Below, in pieces: positions 12,332-33,236 of a stretch of 39,397 nucleotides of DNA; position 1 is the stretch's first letter; every line of letters begins with the position of its first letter. This DNA is from an uncultured Clostridia bacterium (GTDB lineage: Bacteria > Bacillota > Clostridia > Christensenellales > UBA1242), in the NCBI GenBank assembly GCA_946491735.1, contig CAMLYK010000004.1, positions 1 through 39,397 of the forward strand, written 5' to 3'. The notes below the pieces were generated by a model. The model worked only from the letters and a program-made list of their open reading frames with translations, did no database searches and had not been told where the DNA came from. The translations under genes were made by a program, and so were the position numbers.

Positions 12332-12997
12332 TTATCTTGCATTTGTTGATTGAGGGGATACAGCAGTTGGGTAAAGTGGCAAGTCGAATACACCTGGGCA
12401 AACATCATTACCTGTAAATGGTGTGCAAGGTGGAATTGGGCAATATCCATAACTTGGTACAAGTACGTCAACAACTGCGACAACTTTTAAGATTGTAGTT
12501 ACACAACCAGAGATTGTAAACCCACCTGTAGTAGTGTTGTAAACGCCACTGGCTATAACAGCACTGCCAAATGCCACAACATCAATTGGAGTAAGGGCAG
12601 GCTGAGGAACATATAGTATGACGTCTTGAGTCATAGTGATAGTACCTTCTGCTGTGCCTGGTACATTGTTTTGATCTGTATATGTAACTGTTACAGGTAT
12701 ATTGATATTAGCTTGAACACGTGCAAAGTTTGGTCTATCATCAAATCTAGTAATTGTCAAATTGCTGACCGTTGCAGTACTTCCTACTGAGTTTCCACTG
12801 ACAAAAGTTAAAGGAGTGGTAGGACCAGCAGGGTTAAAGTTAGTCAATGTTAGAGAATAGTCTTCAAGCTGTACTTGCGACATACAAGCATCAAAAACTT
12901 TAGTAGCTTGGATACAAATACGTTCACAAAGTCCATTCATAACATTGTTCGTTTGACCAGGGAATATTCCGGGTCTAGAATCTGTATAAAAAGACAT
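12332..12997 (-). CDS. Cys-containing structural-type protein, possible spore coat/surface component
   Basis: I do not recognise a named family. The 221-residue protein has no signal peptide or membrane segment. It opens with SRPGIFPGQTNN, then NGLCERICIQATKVFDACMSQ with three cysteines. The middle is beta-rich and Thr/Val/Asn-rich, and the C-terminal part is rich in Cys and Pro (YGYCPIPPCTPF, NDVCPG). This composition is like spore coat or exosporium proteins of clostridia. CCTCCT (13004-13009) gives a perfect AGGAGG six bases before the ATG, so strong translation is likely. No sigma-A promoter is clear upstream, which would fit a sporulation sigma, but I could not match a sigma-E or sigma-K pattern. 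It converges with engB on a shared terminator. Confidence 0.85.
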   Translation of the reverse strand: MSFYTDSRPGIFPGQTNNVMNGLCERICIQATKVFDACMSQVQLEDYSLTLTNFNPAGPTTPLTFVSGNSVGSTATVSNLTITRFDDRPNFARVQANINIPVTVTYTDQNNVPGTAEGTITMTQDVILYVPQPALTPIDVVAFGSAVIASGVYNTTTGGFTISGCVTTILKVVAVVDVLVPSYGYCPIPPCTPFTGNDVCPGVFDLPLYPTAVSPQSTNAR

Positions 12998-13264: not shown

Positions 13265-13293
13265 TTGACAAATCATAATTTATTTGTTATTCT
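13265..13293 (+). promoter_or_regulatory. strong promoter immediately before the acyltransferase-like gene
   Basis: -35 TTGACA (13265-13270), 17-base spacer ending in TGT, -10 TATTCT (13288-13293). Transcription should start near 13300, only about 5 bases before the ATG at 13305. Confidence 0.75.
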
Positions 13294-13304
13294 ACTATCG
13301 TTAT

Positions 13305-13889
13305 ATGAAATTATATATATTTATTATTTTAATAGGATGTATATTTACTACAATTTTGGCAGTCACTGTTGGAGTCAGAGTATTTTCTCTATCAGACGGC
13401 GTGATATTGTTTTCGATTCTTTTCTCACTTTTGTTCTTATTATTCGTAGATATAATAGTTGCTGTCATAGTTAGGATTCTACCAAAAAAGTGGGTCAATC
13501 CGTTCAATAAAATATACACTGTTCATAAATGGGAAAGTAAATTATATGTCAAGTTAGGTGTCAGGAAATGGAAAGATTTGATTCCCGAATCTGGCAAAAC
13601 ACTGACAGGATTTGACAAACGTCAAGTTGAAAATGTTAAAGATAACACGTATTTATTTAAATTCATGGAAGAAACTGTGTACGCAGAAGTCATGCATTTG
13701 ATAAGTGCAATTTTAAGTTTTTTTGTGGTGTTTATCAATTTGAAATTATGGCTGATCGTTGGCTTACCTTTAGCAATTGTAAATTTCATTTTGCAAATTC
13801 TTCCTGTCATGGTACAAAGATATAATAGACCAAAACTTATGATTGCATATAAACGTAATGAAAAATATAATCAAACGTCTGCAAATTAA
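13305..13889 (+). CDS. membrane protein resembling CrtO-type glycosyl-diaponeurosporenoate acyltransferases
   Basis: From the ATG at 13305 the protein has 194 residues: two N-terminal hydrophobic segments, a central polar part WESKLYVKLGVRKWKDLIPESGKTLTGFDK, then EETVYAEVMHL, two more hydrophobic segments and a C-terminal NRPKLMIAY. The pattern 'KWKD-P-x-G, then ExxxAExxH, then RP' is that of the small integral-membrane CrtO-like acyltransferase family. No carotenoid genes are nearby, so the substrate is unknown and another lipid or envelope acyl acceptor is as likely. An upstream in-frame TTG (13284) overlaps the promoter and is not a plausible start. There is no ribosome site and the predicted leader is about 5 bases. 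Confidence 0.75.
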   Translation: MKLYIFIILIGCIFTTILAVTVGVRVFSLSDGVILFSILFSLLFLLFVDIIVAVIVRILPKKWVNPFNKIYTVHKWESKLYVKLGVRKWKDLIPESGKTLTGFDKRQVENVKDNTYLFKFMEETVYAEVMHLISAILSFFVVFINLKLWLIVGLPLAIVNFILQILPVMVQRYNRPKLMIAYKRNEKYNQTSAN

Positions 13890-13892
13890 TAA

Positions 13893-13921
13893 TTGACGTT
13901 TTGAATTTGATATGCTAAAAT
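13893..13921 (+). promoter_or_regulatory. promoter placing +1 on the metallophosphoesterase start codon
   Basis: -35 TTGACG (13893-13898), 17 bases, extended -10 TGC-TAAAAT (13913-13921). Six bases separate the -10 from the ATG at 13928, so +1 should be at or next to the A of the start codon. No Shine-Dalgarno exists. Confidence 0.85.
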
Positions 13922-13927
13922 CAATTT

Positions 13928-14623
13928 ATGAATATTTATTCTATAAGTGATCTTCATCTAGATATTAACAATACCAAACCAATGGATATATTTGGTCCTG
14001 TTTGGCACAATTATTTAGACAAAATAATTGATAGTTGGAATTCACTTGTCAAAGATGATGACATTGTCGTTTTGGCAGGGGATTTTAGTTGGGCGATGAA
14101 ATTGGAAGAAGTCGAAAAAGATTTTGACTTCTTAAAAAATTTGAAGGGTACGAAAATATTGATCCGAGGCAATCATGATTATTGGTGGAGTAGTGTCAGT
14201 CGTGTCAGAGATAAATTGCCTCCAAATACGTACGCATTACAAAATGATGCGATAAAGATTGGCAAATTCATATTTTGCGGGAATCGCGGATGGCAAATTC
14301 CTGAAGGGAAATTTGATACTGAAGAAAACCGAAAATTATATTTAAGAGAGACAATTCGCTTGGAATTATCTATGAAAAGTGCGAAAAAACTACAAACTGA
14401 TAATGAAGAAATTGTTTTCATCACGCATTATCCACCTTTTAATAATAAAATCGAACCTTCTCCATATACAAAGATGTTGGAAGAGTATGGCGTTAGTTAT
14501 GTAATTTTTGGTCACCTTCATGGATATGTCAATCCTAAAATGCTGTATAACGAAATAAATGGCATCAAATACTTTCTTACTAGTTGTGATGCAGTAAAAA
14601 ATCAACTGATAAAAATTGTTTAG
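13928..14623 (+). CDS. calcineurin-like metallophosphoesterase
   Basis: A 231-residue cytosolic phosphoesterase with all metal-ligand motifs in order: SISDLHLD (Asp8, His10), VVLAGDFSW, LIRGNHDYWW, VFITHYPPF and VIFGHLHGY. Family members hydrolyse phosphodiesters or phosphomonoesters; the substrate cannot be told from sequence. The promoter geometry predicts a leaderless mRNA. The stop lies 7 bases before the rsmH start, so it probably is the first gene of the rsmH/ftsL-like transcript and, with rsmH, begins the dcw region. MraZ, which usually precedes rsmH in Firmicutes, is not present here. Confidence 0.92.
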   Translation: MNIYSISDLHLDINNTKPMDIFGPVWHNYLDKIIDSWNSLVKDDDIVVLAGDFSWAMKLEEVEKDFDFLKNLKGTKILIRGNHDYWWSSVSRVRDKLPPNTYALQNDAIKIGKFIFCGNRGWQIPEGKFDTEENRKLYLRETIRLELSMKSAKKLQTDNEEIVFITHYPPFNNKIEPSPYTKMLEEYGVSYVIFGHLHGYVNPKMLYNEINGIKYFLTSCDAVKNQLIKIV

Positions 14624-14630
14624 GAGGAAA

Positions 14631-15560
14631 ATGGAATTTAATCACGTATCCGTTCTGAAAGATGAAAGTATCATCGGGTTAAACATAATACCGAATGGTG
14701 TTTATGTTGATTGCACATTGGGTGGTGGCGGTCATTCATTGGAGATAGCAAAAAGGTTAGAGAACGGAAAACTCATTTGTATTGACAAAGATGATGATGC
14801 TTTAAAATATGCTAAAGAAAAGTTAGGCGAATATTCAAAAAATATCATTTTTGTGAAAGGCAATTTTGTTGATATTGACAAAATTTTAGATGAATTAAAT
14901 ATAGACAAGGTCAATGGAATTTTGGTAGATCTTGGGGTAAGTAGTTATCAATTGGACACAAAAGCTCGCGGATTTAGTTTTAAACAAGATGCCAGATTGG
15001 ATATGAGAATGGATCAATCTCAAAAACTGGACGCCGAATATGTAATGAATAATTATTCTGAAAATGAGCTTAGTAGAATTTTGTATACTTATGGTGAAGA
15101 AAAAAATGCAAGACAGATAGCTCGAAAAATTGTTAAAATCAGAGAGAAAAAACCAATTGTTTCAACGTTTGAATTGCGTGATATCATTATATCAAGTTAT
15201 CCGCCAAAATTTCAAAACAAAGCAAGTTTGTGCAACAAAGCATTTCAAGCAATAAGAATCGAGGTCAATAACGAATTAAAGGATTTGGAAATTGCAATTG
15301 AAAAAATGTTGTCAAGATTAGAAAAATGTGGTAGAATATGTATAATAACTTTTCATCCACTGGAAGATAGAATAGTTAAATCTGCATTTAAATTGCATTC
15401 AACTGATTGTATTTGTCCTCCAAGGATACCAAAATGTATTTGTAATCATAAAGCGGATATTAGACTGATTACAAGACATCCAGTGGTCCCAAGCGAAAAT
15501 GAGATGGCTAATAATTCTCGCTCAGCAAGTGCAAAGTTGAGGATTGCAGAAAAATTGTAG
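14631..15560 (+). CDS. rsmH: 16S rRNA m4C1402 methyltransferase RsmH (MraW)
   Basis: It N4-methylates C1402 in the decoding centre of 16S rRNA using S-adenosylmethionine. The 309 residues from ATG 14631 contain HVSVLKDESI, the SAM loop DCTLGGGGHS, VDLGVSSYQLD, GFSFKQDARLDMRMD, CNKAFQAIRIEVN and TFHPLEDRIVK, all RsmH hallmarks. AGGAGG (14622-14627) is three bases from the ATG; an upstream in-frame TTG at 14616 would bury that site and is rejected. First classical dcw gene, followed after 7 bases by the FtsL-position gene. Confidence 0.97.
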   Translation: MEFNHVSVLKDESIIGLNIIPNGVYVDCTLGGGGHSLEIAKRLENGKLICIDKDDDALKYAKEKLGEYSKNIIFVKGNFVDIDKILDELNIDKVNGILVDLGVSSYQLDTKARGFSFKQDARLDMRMDQSQKLDAEYVMNNYSENELSRILYTYGEEKNARQIARKIVKIREKKPIVSTFELRDIIISSYPPKFQNKASLCNKAFQAIRIEVNNELKDLEIAIEKMLSRLEKCGRICIITFHPLEDRIVKSAFKLHSTDCICPPRIPKCICNHKADIRLITRHPVVPSENEMANNSRSASAKLRIAEKL

Positions 15561-15567
15561 GTGAAAT

Positions 15568-16098
15568 ATGGAATTGGAAACAGAAAAAGAAACATCTGCA
15601 AATACTGTGTTGGAAAACGAGTCTGCAGTTAAAAATGAAACAAGACTCGGCGATACATTACGCCTTGAAGATCTATTAAAAAGTGAAAATGAAGTAAAAC
15701 CTTTGCCCGAACTAAAAGGGCTAAAAAAGGTTGAGAACAATGCTTTAGAAGAAGACAAGACATTCAAAAGCAAAGAAGATGAAAAAAAGTCCATAGTTCG
15801 AAAACGTGTCAAACTGGTGACTGGCATATACATAAGCATTGTCGCTTTGTTGCTATGTTTTGTGGGTATTAATATTGCTACTCTCACAATGATGAATAGA
15901 GATATTAATAATAATGCCAACACTATTCAAAGTCAGTCACAGCAAGTTGATTTTTATGAAAATAGGACAGATCCAATCACTGATCCAACAGATAGCATAA
16001 CAGTATCTTTAAATCCACCACGTGATTATGAAGATGATGCGCAAGAATTGACATTTTTTGACAAGATGACAAATTTATTTAGAAATATATTTGGTTAA
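15568..16098 (+). CDS. single-pass membrane protein in the FtsL position
   Basis: A 176-residue bitopic protein: about 85 charged cytosolic residues rich in Glu and Lys, one membrane segment (near residues 89-110, GIYISIVALLLCFVGINIAT), then about 65 extracellular residues ending with FFDKMTNLFRNIFG. Its place between rsmH and the class B PBP is that of FtsL, a division protein that binds DivIC/FtsB and FtsQ. The expected leucine-zipper coiled coil after the membrane segment is hardly evident (MMNRDINNNANTIQSQSQQ is short and polar), and the N-terminal tail is longer than usual. I therefore call it FtsL-like by position only. AGGTG precedes the ATG. Confidence 0.7.
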   Translation: MELETEKETSANTVLENESAVKNETRLGDTLRLEDLLKSENEVKPLPELKGLKKVENNALEEDKTFKSKEDEKKSIVRKRVKLVTGIYISIVALLLCFVGINIATLTMMNRDINNNANTIQSQSQQVDFYENRTDPITDPTDSITVSLNPPRDYEDDAQELTFFDKMTNLFRNIFG

Positions 16099-16130
16099 AA
16101 GGAAGAGAAATCTTCCTTTTTATTTTTTAT
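16097..16130 (+). terminator. terminator inside the dcw cluster
   Basis: AAAAGGAAGA (16097-16106) pairs perfectly with 16111-16120 around a GAAA loop, followed by TATTTTTTATT. It overlaps the stop codon of the FtsL-like gene and separates it from the PBP-mur genes. Confidence 0.9.
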
Positions 16131-31759: not shown

Positions 31760-32386
31760 ATGAAAAAGTTTTTATCAAAAATGCCAGTGATGATCGTGTT
31801 TTTGTCGCTAGCGGTAGTAGGACTATTATTTTATATTGTTATGCTTGCACGACCTGTCAGTTATGGAATGACTTATACTTGGAATCACATTGTGACAGAG
31901 GCTGATGCTTCTATATTTGGTGAAGTGGGTTCAGAAATTAATATGACTATCAAAATTAAAAATGATGAGAAAATGGAACAAACATTGTCATCCGAAAATA
32001 ACGGTGAGCCAGTTGAAGCTTGGATAGTTCGTAATGGAAACCAATTCATTATGATACCTGTGACAATGACGGAAGAAGAATATGATACTTTCGTAGAAGA
32101 ATTGAAAGCAGATGAAGCAGAATGGAATGCAATATGGGCAGGAGAAGGTGAAGGTATGCCTGTATTCAATGTGAATGCTTTCGGTATTAATGTTGATTTG
32201 AATGGAGTGAACATTGATATGACTTGCACGGGAGCAATAGTGTTTGCATCTGTGTTTGGTGCGGTTGAACTAATACTTATAACCTTTGCAATCCTATCTA
32301 CAATCTTTTATATAAAAGCTAGAAAGGATGGAACAGCAGAGGATTTATCTGATGTTGAACGAATAATTGACTCTCAATCTAACTAA
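31760..32386 (+). CDS. two-TM extracytoplasmic-domain membrane protein, paralogue A
   Basis: A 208-residue protein of unknown family. Segment 1 (residues 9-29) is followed by LARPVSYGMTY, an outer acidic domain of about 125 residues, segment 2 (TGAIVFASVFGAVELILITFAIL) and a short cytosolic tail KARKDGTAEDL. The outer domain ends in MTCTGAIVF; the Cys near the membrane is also found in paralogue B. AAAAGGAG precedes the ATG. Sequence and DNA context are duplicated downstream: the two proteins share MKKFLSKMPVMIV exactly and the motifs LARPxSYGMTY, MTEEEY and NxAF. Shape suggests a sensor or accessory envelope protein; this is inference. Confidence 0.85.
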   Translation: MKKFLSKMPVMIVFLSLAVVGLLFYIVMLARPVSYGMTYTWNHIVTEADASIFGEVGSEINMTIKIKNDEKMEQTLSSENNGEPVEAWIVRNGNQFIMIPVTMTEEEYDTFVEELKADEAEWNAIWAGEGEGMPVFNVNAFGINVDLNGVNIDMTCTGAIVFASVFGAVELILITFAILSTIFYIKARKDGTAEDLSDVERIIDSQSN

Positions 32387-32598: not shown

Positions 32599-32627
32599 CA
32601 TAATAATAAAAACAAAAAGAGTTGTTT

Positions 32628-33236
32628 ATGAAAAAGTTTTTATCAAAAATGCCAGTGATGATCGTATTATTATCACTAGCAGCAGTAGGGCTAGTATTCT
32701 ACATTGTAATGCTTGCTCGTCCGATCAGCTATGGGATGACTTATTCTTATACGCAGACAGTTGAGACTGAACAGGATGCAACTGAATCTGGACTGCCAAT
32801 TGGTTCAGAGGCTGGTATGTACATTAAATTTAATAGTGACTCAAGAGCAGTAGTTACCATGTCAGCAGGAGAAAATTCAATGACTACAGAGATGTGGGTC
32901 TTTCGCATTGGTAACAAGGTTGTAATACTTAATGCAGTTTCAGAAATGACTGAAGAAGAATATAATCAAGCAGTTGAAGCGATGAAAGCAGATGTAGATA
33001 CTTTCAATTCAAATGCGATAGATATCAATGCATTTAGAATGGCAAGTGATGATGGTAGTGAAAACATGACGTGTAATGGTGCAATCGTTTTTGCAGTCGT
33101 ATGGGCAGTTGTTGAAATAGCATTGATTGTATTTGCAGTATTGTCAACTTTATATTATGTTAAAGCGAAAAAGAATGTTTCAGATGACGCTGCAACTACT
33201 GCAGAAACCACTACAGACACTCAAGTTAGTGAATAA
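32628..33236 (+). CDS. two-TM extracytoplasmic-domain membrane protein, paralogue B
   Basis: A 202-residue paralogue of the preceding gene, same topology: segment 1 (residues 9-29), LARPISYGMTY, an outer domain rich in Thr, Glu and Met, MTEEEYNQAVEAMKAD, the juxtamembrane MTCNGAIVF, segment 2 and a tail of KAKK followed by acidic and Thr-rich residues. The outer halves have diverged much more than the two membrane ends. The first 35 or so bases of the gene are identical to paralogue A. The ribosome site is weaker (AAAGAG), and the in-frame TTG two codons upstream adds nothing. No family is recognised. Confidence 0.85.
   Translation: MKKFLSKMPVMIVLLSLAAVGLVFYIVMLARPISYGMTYSYTQTVETEQDATESGLPIGSEAGMYIKFNSDSRAVVTMSAGENSMTTEMWVFRIGNKVVILNAVSEMTEEEYNQAVEAMKADVDTFNSNAIDINAFRMASDDGSENMTCNGAIVFAVVWAVVEIALIVFAVLSTLYYVKAKKNVSDDAATTAETTTDTQVSE

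Follow-up and report, generated by a model that had tools for sequence, protein, structure and literature searches.

Predicted leaderless transcription of a metallophosphoesterase-rsmH unit, and of a regular minority of genes, in a Christensenellales lineage

Leaderless initiation uses the 30S subunit or the 70S ribosome with initiator tRNA and is favoured by IF2 (PMC10783764), and leaderless transcription is predicted for 21.6% of species across bacteria (PMC9581028). The described genes closest in architecture to the one analyzed here come from a survey of Firmicutes, where predicted leaderless genes averaged 4.2% (2.4–16.6%) in 56 of 209 genomes and TA-led leaderless genes were concentrated in the Lactobacillales (Lactococcus-Streptococcus, Oenococcus-Leuconostoc) and Mycoplasma (PMC3160421). 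Our locus shares with those genes a low-GC Bacillota host, a TG and TATAAT-type box about 10–12 nt before the start, the lack of a Shine-Dalgarno (SD) sequence and restriction to a minority of genes, but its lineage belongs to the Christensenellales, and the text of the survey does not mention Clostridia (PMC3160421). Among clostridia, RNA mapping identified 15 potentially leaderless genes in C. difficile (PMC7438776) and 5′ UTRs under 6 nt in about 2–3% of transcripts of solventogenic species (PMC9045289). These are of the same class and of the same architecture as predicted here, confirmed there by RNA, whereas the share that we predict from sequence, about 7% of genes, is at least twice that measured in the studied clostridia. 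In Deinococcus-Thermus the −10 likewise lies at fixed spacing to the open reading frame and reporters showed leaderless mRNA; there, however, the box is TANNNT and depends little on a −35 (PMC12340547), while here a −35 and an extended −10 are usually both present and are conserved. In the open-access literature we found no paper on leaderless transcription in Christensenellales, nor any treating rsmH and leaderless transcription as a topic. The lineage is new and the mechanism is known.

The present study analyzes the start of a metallophosphoesterase gene that lies upstream of rsmH in the window, by which we mean the whole stretch of 39,397 nucleotides that was analysed (Table 1). The original prediction had read a TTGACG-17-TGC-TAAAAT promoter with its −10 ending six bases before the ATG, and these coordinates are confirmed, with the qualification that the 17-nt spacer is correct but already includes the TGC and does not come to 20. 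The site has the form of a sigma-A (sigma-70 type) extended −10 promoter (10/12 plus TG), scores 11/13 when −35, −10 and TG are combined, and is followed by CAATTT up to the ATG, so that the first T of TAAAAT is at −12 relative to the start codon, inside the range of about 10–12 nt for TA-led genes. With +1 set 7 nt past the end of the −10, transcription is predicted to begin at the A of the ATG, the sole purine at that distance, which agrees with the earlier placement of +1 on the start codon. The absence of a ribosome site is likewise upheld, as no 4-nt match to AAGGAGGT occurs in the RBS window before ATG 13928, and the AGGAGG assigned to rsmH is present. On sequence grounds no start other than ATG 13928 is plausible: an in-frame TAA lies within the −10 (13916), and homologues use the same start codon. 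A start further downstream was rejected, since the next in-frame Met (residue 19) would remove the conserved, essential SDLHL metal-binding motif at the N-terminus. The distance from the crtO stop is too great for ordinary re-initiation. The 5′ end of the mRNA would fold weakly, which is compatible with a leaderless reading and is not evidence for it, and an Rfam search of the window returned no RNA element. Metallophosphoesterase and rRNA methyltransferase are linked by operon position only.

Table 1. Coordinates of the promoter, the three-gene unit and the upstream gene in the window
Feature	Position	Strand	Remarks
Upstream CrtO-like gene	13284-13889	+	PF18927, E 1.9e-27; stop 38 nt before ATG 13928
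−35 element TTGACG	13893-13898	+	5/6 to TTGACA; TTG conserved among leaderless homologues
Spacer	13899-13915	+	17 nt, TGC counted within
Extended −10 TGC	13913-13915	+	TG in 20/20 aligned leaderless or near-leaderless homologous sites
−10 element TAAAAT	13916-13921	+	ends 6 nt ahead of ATG; in-frame TAA inside
ATG start codon, with predicted +1 at A 13928	13928-13930	+	inferred from spacing, position statistics and −1 pyrimidine
Metallophosphoesterase gene	13928-14623	+	PF00149, calcineurin-like, E 4.3e-17; 231 aa, MNIYSISDLHLD; homologues share start codon
rsmH Shine-Dalgarno AGGAGG	14622-14627	+	overlaps stop of metallophosphoesterase gene; 3 nt before ATG 14631
rsmH, 16S rRNA m4C1402 methyltransferase	14631-15560	+	TIGR00006, E 3.2e-105
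176-aa one-membrane-span protein, ftsL position	15568-16098	+	no family match; FtsL assignment by position only
Intrinsic-terminator-like hairpin and T run	16097-16120	+	end of three-gene unit

Promoter-like matches are common in AT-rich DNA (81 per 10 kb against 58 in shuffles, at 32% GC), so the site by itself proves little and it is position that counts. We therefore rely on the distribution of gaps between the −10 and the start codon in the organism's own genome, sampled over 439 kb (the window and 20 further 20-kb stretches; 344 first-ATG starts), with a threshold score of at least 10/13 for −35, −10 and TG and with dinucleotide shuffles as control. Sites were found at a gap of 6 nt before 21 genes and of 7 nt before 4, compared with 0.32 and 0.43 in shuffles, and the remaining gaps between 2 and 15 nt held 0–3 sites each; the expected false share among the gap 6–7 sites is accordingly about 3%. 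Promoters at these two gaps thus precede 25 of the 344 genes (~7%) where about 0.75 would be expected, the genome-level mark of TA-led genes. The spike was also seen when all early ATGs were counted, and in the whole genome the pattern TGNTAWAATN{4,9}ATG occurs 85 times and its reversed form 13 times. An SD of at least 4 nt was found before 203 of the 319 other genes (64%) but before none of the 25. Bacterial transcription start sites prefer a pyrimidine at −1 ahead of a purine at +1, and a pyrimidine before the ATG is expected here if the A of the ATG is +1; T or C preceded the ATG in all 21 gap-6 genes versus 208 of the 319 others (p 1.8e-4). The strong SD use just given also served as a proxy for the anti-SD in place of a direct match to the 16S 3′ end, since the pattern TGGATCACCTCCTTTCT, allowing one mismatch, was not found in 12 genomes of the window's family, possibly because rRNA is missing or masked in the assemblies or because the end has changed. 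The leaderless transcript proposed for the metallophosphoesterase-rsmH unit is well supported, as a prediction, by four mutually independent kinds of evidence: this positional spike, the absence of SD, the pyrimidine-purine step and the relatives discussed below. The accompanying remark that leaderless mRNAs are rare in Firmicutes is correct generally, with few in characterised Clostridia, but fails for this lineage, in which they appear to be a regular minority mode, and for that reason the metallophosphoesterase gene is no oddity in its own genome.

Conservation of the promoter at this gene was compared in 80 relatives of the metallophosphoesterase gene, again requiring a promoter score of at least 10. 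Leaderless spacing (gap 6–7) was found in 18 and near-leaderless spacing (gap 9–10) in three, and most of the remainder had an SD or started where the upstream gene ends; the base before the ATG was a pyrimidine in 15/15 gap-6 relatives versus 31/59 others (p 2.8e-4). On the protein tree, 15 highly diverged homologues formed one clade (support 97/86), with 14 members at gap 6–7 and one at gap 9, and within it mean pairwise identity was 0.94 for the extended −10 but 0.33 for the spacer and 0.28 for the flank. Such conservation amid diverged surroundings reads as a clear footprint of selection at that place. The leaderless label changed 5 times on the tree as opposed to 17.2 in shuffles. The window's own group was mixed, with 5 of 11 members leaderless: two same-genus-level relatives (L001 and L192, 87% identity) keep the arrangement in diverged flanking sequence, and the close relatives L002, L003, L005 and L193, the last sharing the genus code, have an SD instead, from which it follows that leaderlessness is not required for this gene. 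In some relatives the promoter is retained behind different upstream genes. When orthologues were compared between the organism's genome and five others (G350, G306, G369, G329 and G222), conservation of the state was not significant, with 1 of 7 shared with G350, and in the next genera most orthologues of the other leaderless genes lacked the state, which indicates its rapid turnover from genus to genus. The predicted leaderless state is often gained and lost, yet it is recurrent at the metallophosphoesterase gene.

Spread beyond the genome was assessed from whole-genome counts of the exact-gap pattern, with 6 nt as signal and 4 nt as control, a comparison that is conservative because most genomes show a slight preference for 4 nt, as do 167 genomes from elsewhere in the class (2117 at gap 6 and 2848 at gap 4, ratio 0.74). 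The genomes of 38 relatives, selected for having the metallophosphoesterase gene and not for the signal, gave 859 versus 284 (ratio 3.0), with gap 6 exceeding gap 4 in 35. Across the window's order (121 genomes) the counts were 1309 and 739, and 15 of its 31 families exceeded the background of the class (p < 0.02), these p values being per single family with several far below any correction for 31 families. The organism's own family, f1, had 158 versus 73 (ratio 2.2, p 2.5e-15), whereas f160 (22 versus 51) and f168 (15 versus 46) are clearly without signal. Gene-level samples of single genomes were in accord: in G350, of the window's own family, 16 of 256 genes had gap 6; G306 gave 3 + 2 of 184 and G369 5 + 2 of 265 (order), G329 gave 0 and G222 0 of 194 (class). 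Judged by these sequence patterns, about half of the Christensenellales families carry the leaderless signal, and the remainder of the class, taken together, does not. Outside the class, high gap-6/gap-4 counts were noted in G002 (20/3), G085 (16/2), G027 (15/4) and G171 (13/3), which are possible further leaderless-using Firmicutes.

Patterns detected are, in our judgement, very probably explained by a sigma-A promoter with an extended −10 driving an mRNA that would begin at A 13928, to within about one base. On the model of leaderless mRNAs described elsewhere, the 5′-terminal AUG would be recognised directly by ribosomes with initiator tRNA, and the downstream genes of the same mRNA, rsmH first, would be translated from ordinary SD sites; the same mode would serve a regular minority of genes here and in roughly half the families that make up the order. 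The promoter elements, their spacing, the lack of an SD and the pattern across genome and phylogeny are directly observed; the 5′ end at 13928, the leaderless translation and any benefit from it are what we infer from these data. An alternative explanation could be that the promoter is real but that the functional mRNA carries a leader, most transcripts arising at 13265-13293 or higher and running through crtO, with ATG 13928 read from a long AU-rich leader that lacks an SD. The co-directional crtO ends close upstream, no terminator was found between it and ATG 13928, and promoter-like sites are present upstream, but this would not account for the genome-wide spike at 6–7 nt, the pyrimidine at −1 or the relatives whose promoter sits behind other upstream genes, and we regard it as quite unlikely.

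Less likely again is that transcription begins 1–4 nt before the ATG, giving an ultra-short leader on an mRNA that would behave like a leaderless one; predicted leaders of this length do occur among homologues with gaps of 7, 9 or 10 nt (L009, L010, L044, L066 and L077), but at gap 6 the preferred distance offers a single purine, the A of the ATG, and pyrimidines precede it. That the site is a chance look-alike is hardly credible, given the positional statistics and the conservation in relatives, even though promoter-like matches exceed expectation in this AT-rich DNA.

The predicted leaderless set in the organism's genome includes ylqF, smpB, rnhA, mnmE, prfB, tsaD, holA, a holB-like gene, pth, nth, an RNA methyltransferase gene and rsmI, and pth, rsmI, ylqF and mnmE, which belong to families with sharply defined N-termini, begin at the predicted +1. 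A bias toward translation and RNA-modification functions (ylqF, smpB, prfB, pth, mnmE, tsaD, rsmI) is suggested. It is conceivable, but unlikely, that leaderless mRNAs form a clade-wide class in Christensenellales families with a bias to translation and RNA-modification genes (the rsmH operon, rsmI, mnmE, tsaD, prfB, pth, smpB, ylqF), in which both modifiers of C1402 at the P site of the 16S rRNA would be made via the alternative initiation route, linking the state of the ribosome to their own synthesis. RsmI is the partner of RsmH, methylating the same 16S nucleotide, C1402; its gene (L098:2527-3330, − strand, own genome) has a leaderless-type promoter at gap 6 and no SD.

These predictions add a largely uncultured Clostridia lineage to the bacteria for which regular use of leaderless mRNAs is predicted. 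For annotation of gene starts in the clade, gene finders reliant on SD will misplace starts. There is also relevance to antibiotic action, some drugs sparing leaderless translation (PMC9581028). The families of a single order differ, f160 and f168 lying beside families with strong signal, which offers a natural contrast for gain and loss of the mode, and a predicted leaderless head of a unit that adjoins a division and cell-wall cluster, kept across highly diverged homologues, constitutes a defined test case.

Several minor observations were made in the window. The crtO-like gene has a promoter-like site at 13265-13293 (TTGACA-17-TATTCT with TGT), 11 nt before an ATG at 13305 that lacks an SD; the leader would then measure about 5 nt, although the annotated start could instead be TTG 13284. 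Between ysxC and crtO there is an ORF of 221 aa (12332-12997, − strand) with no Pfam or NCBIfam match. Two tandem genes (31760-32386 and 32622-33236) encode similar membrane proteins beginning MKKFLSKMPVMIV, apparently a recent duplication.
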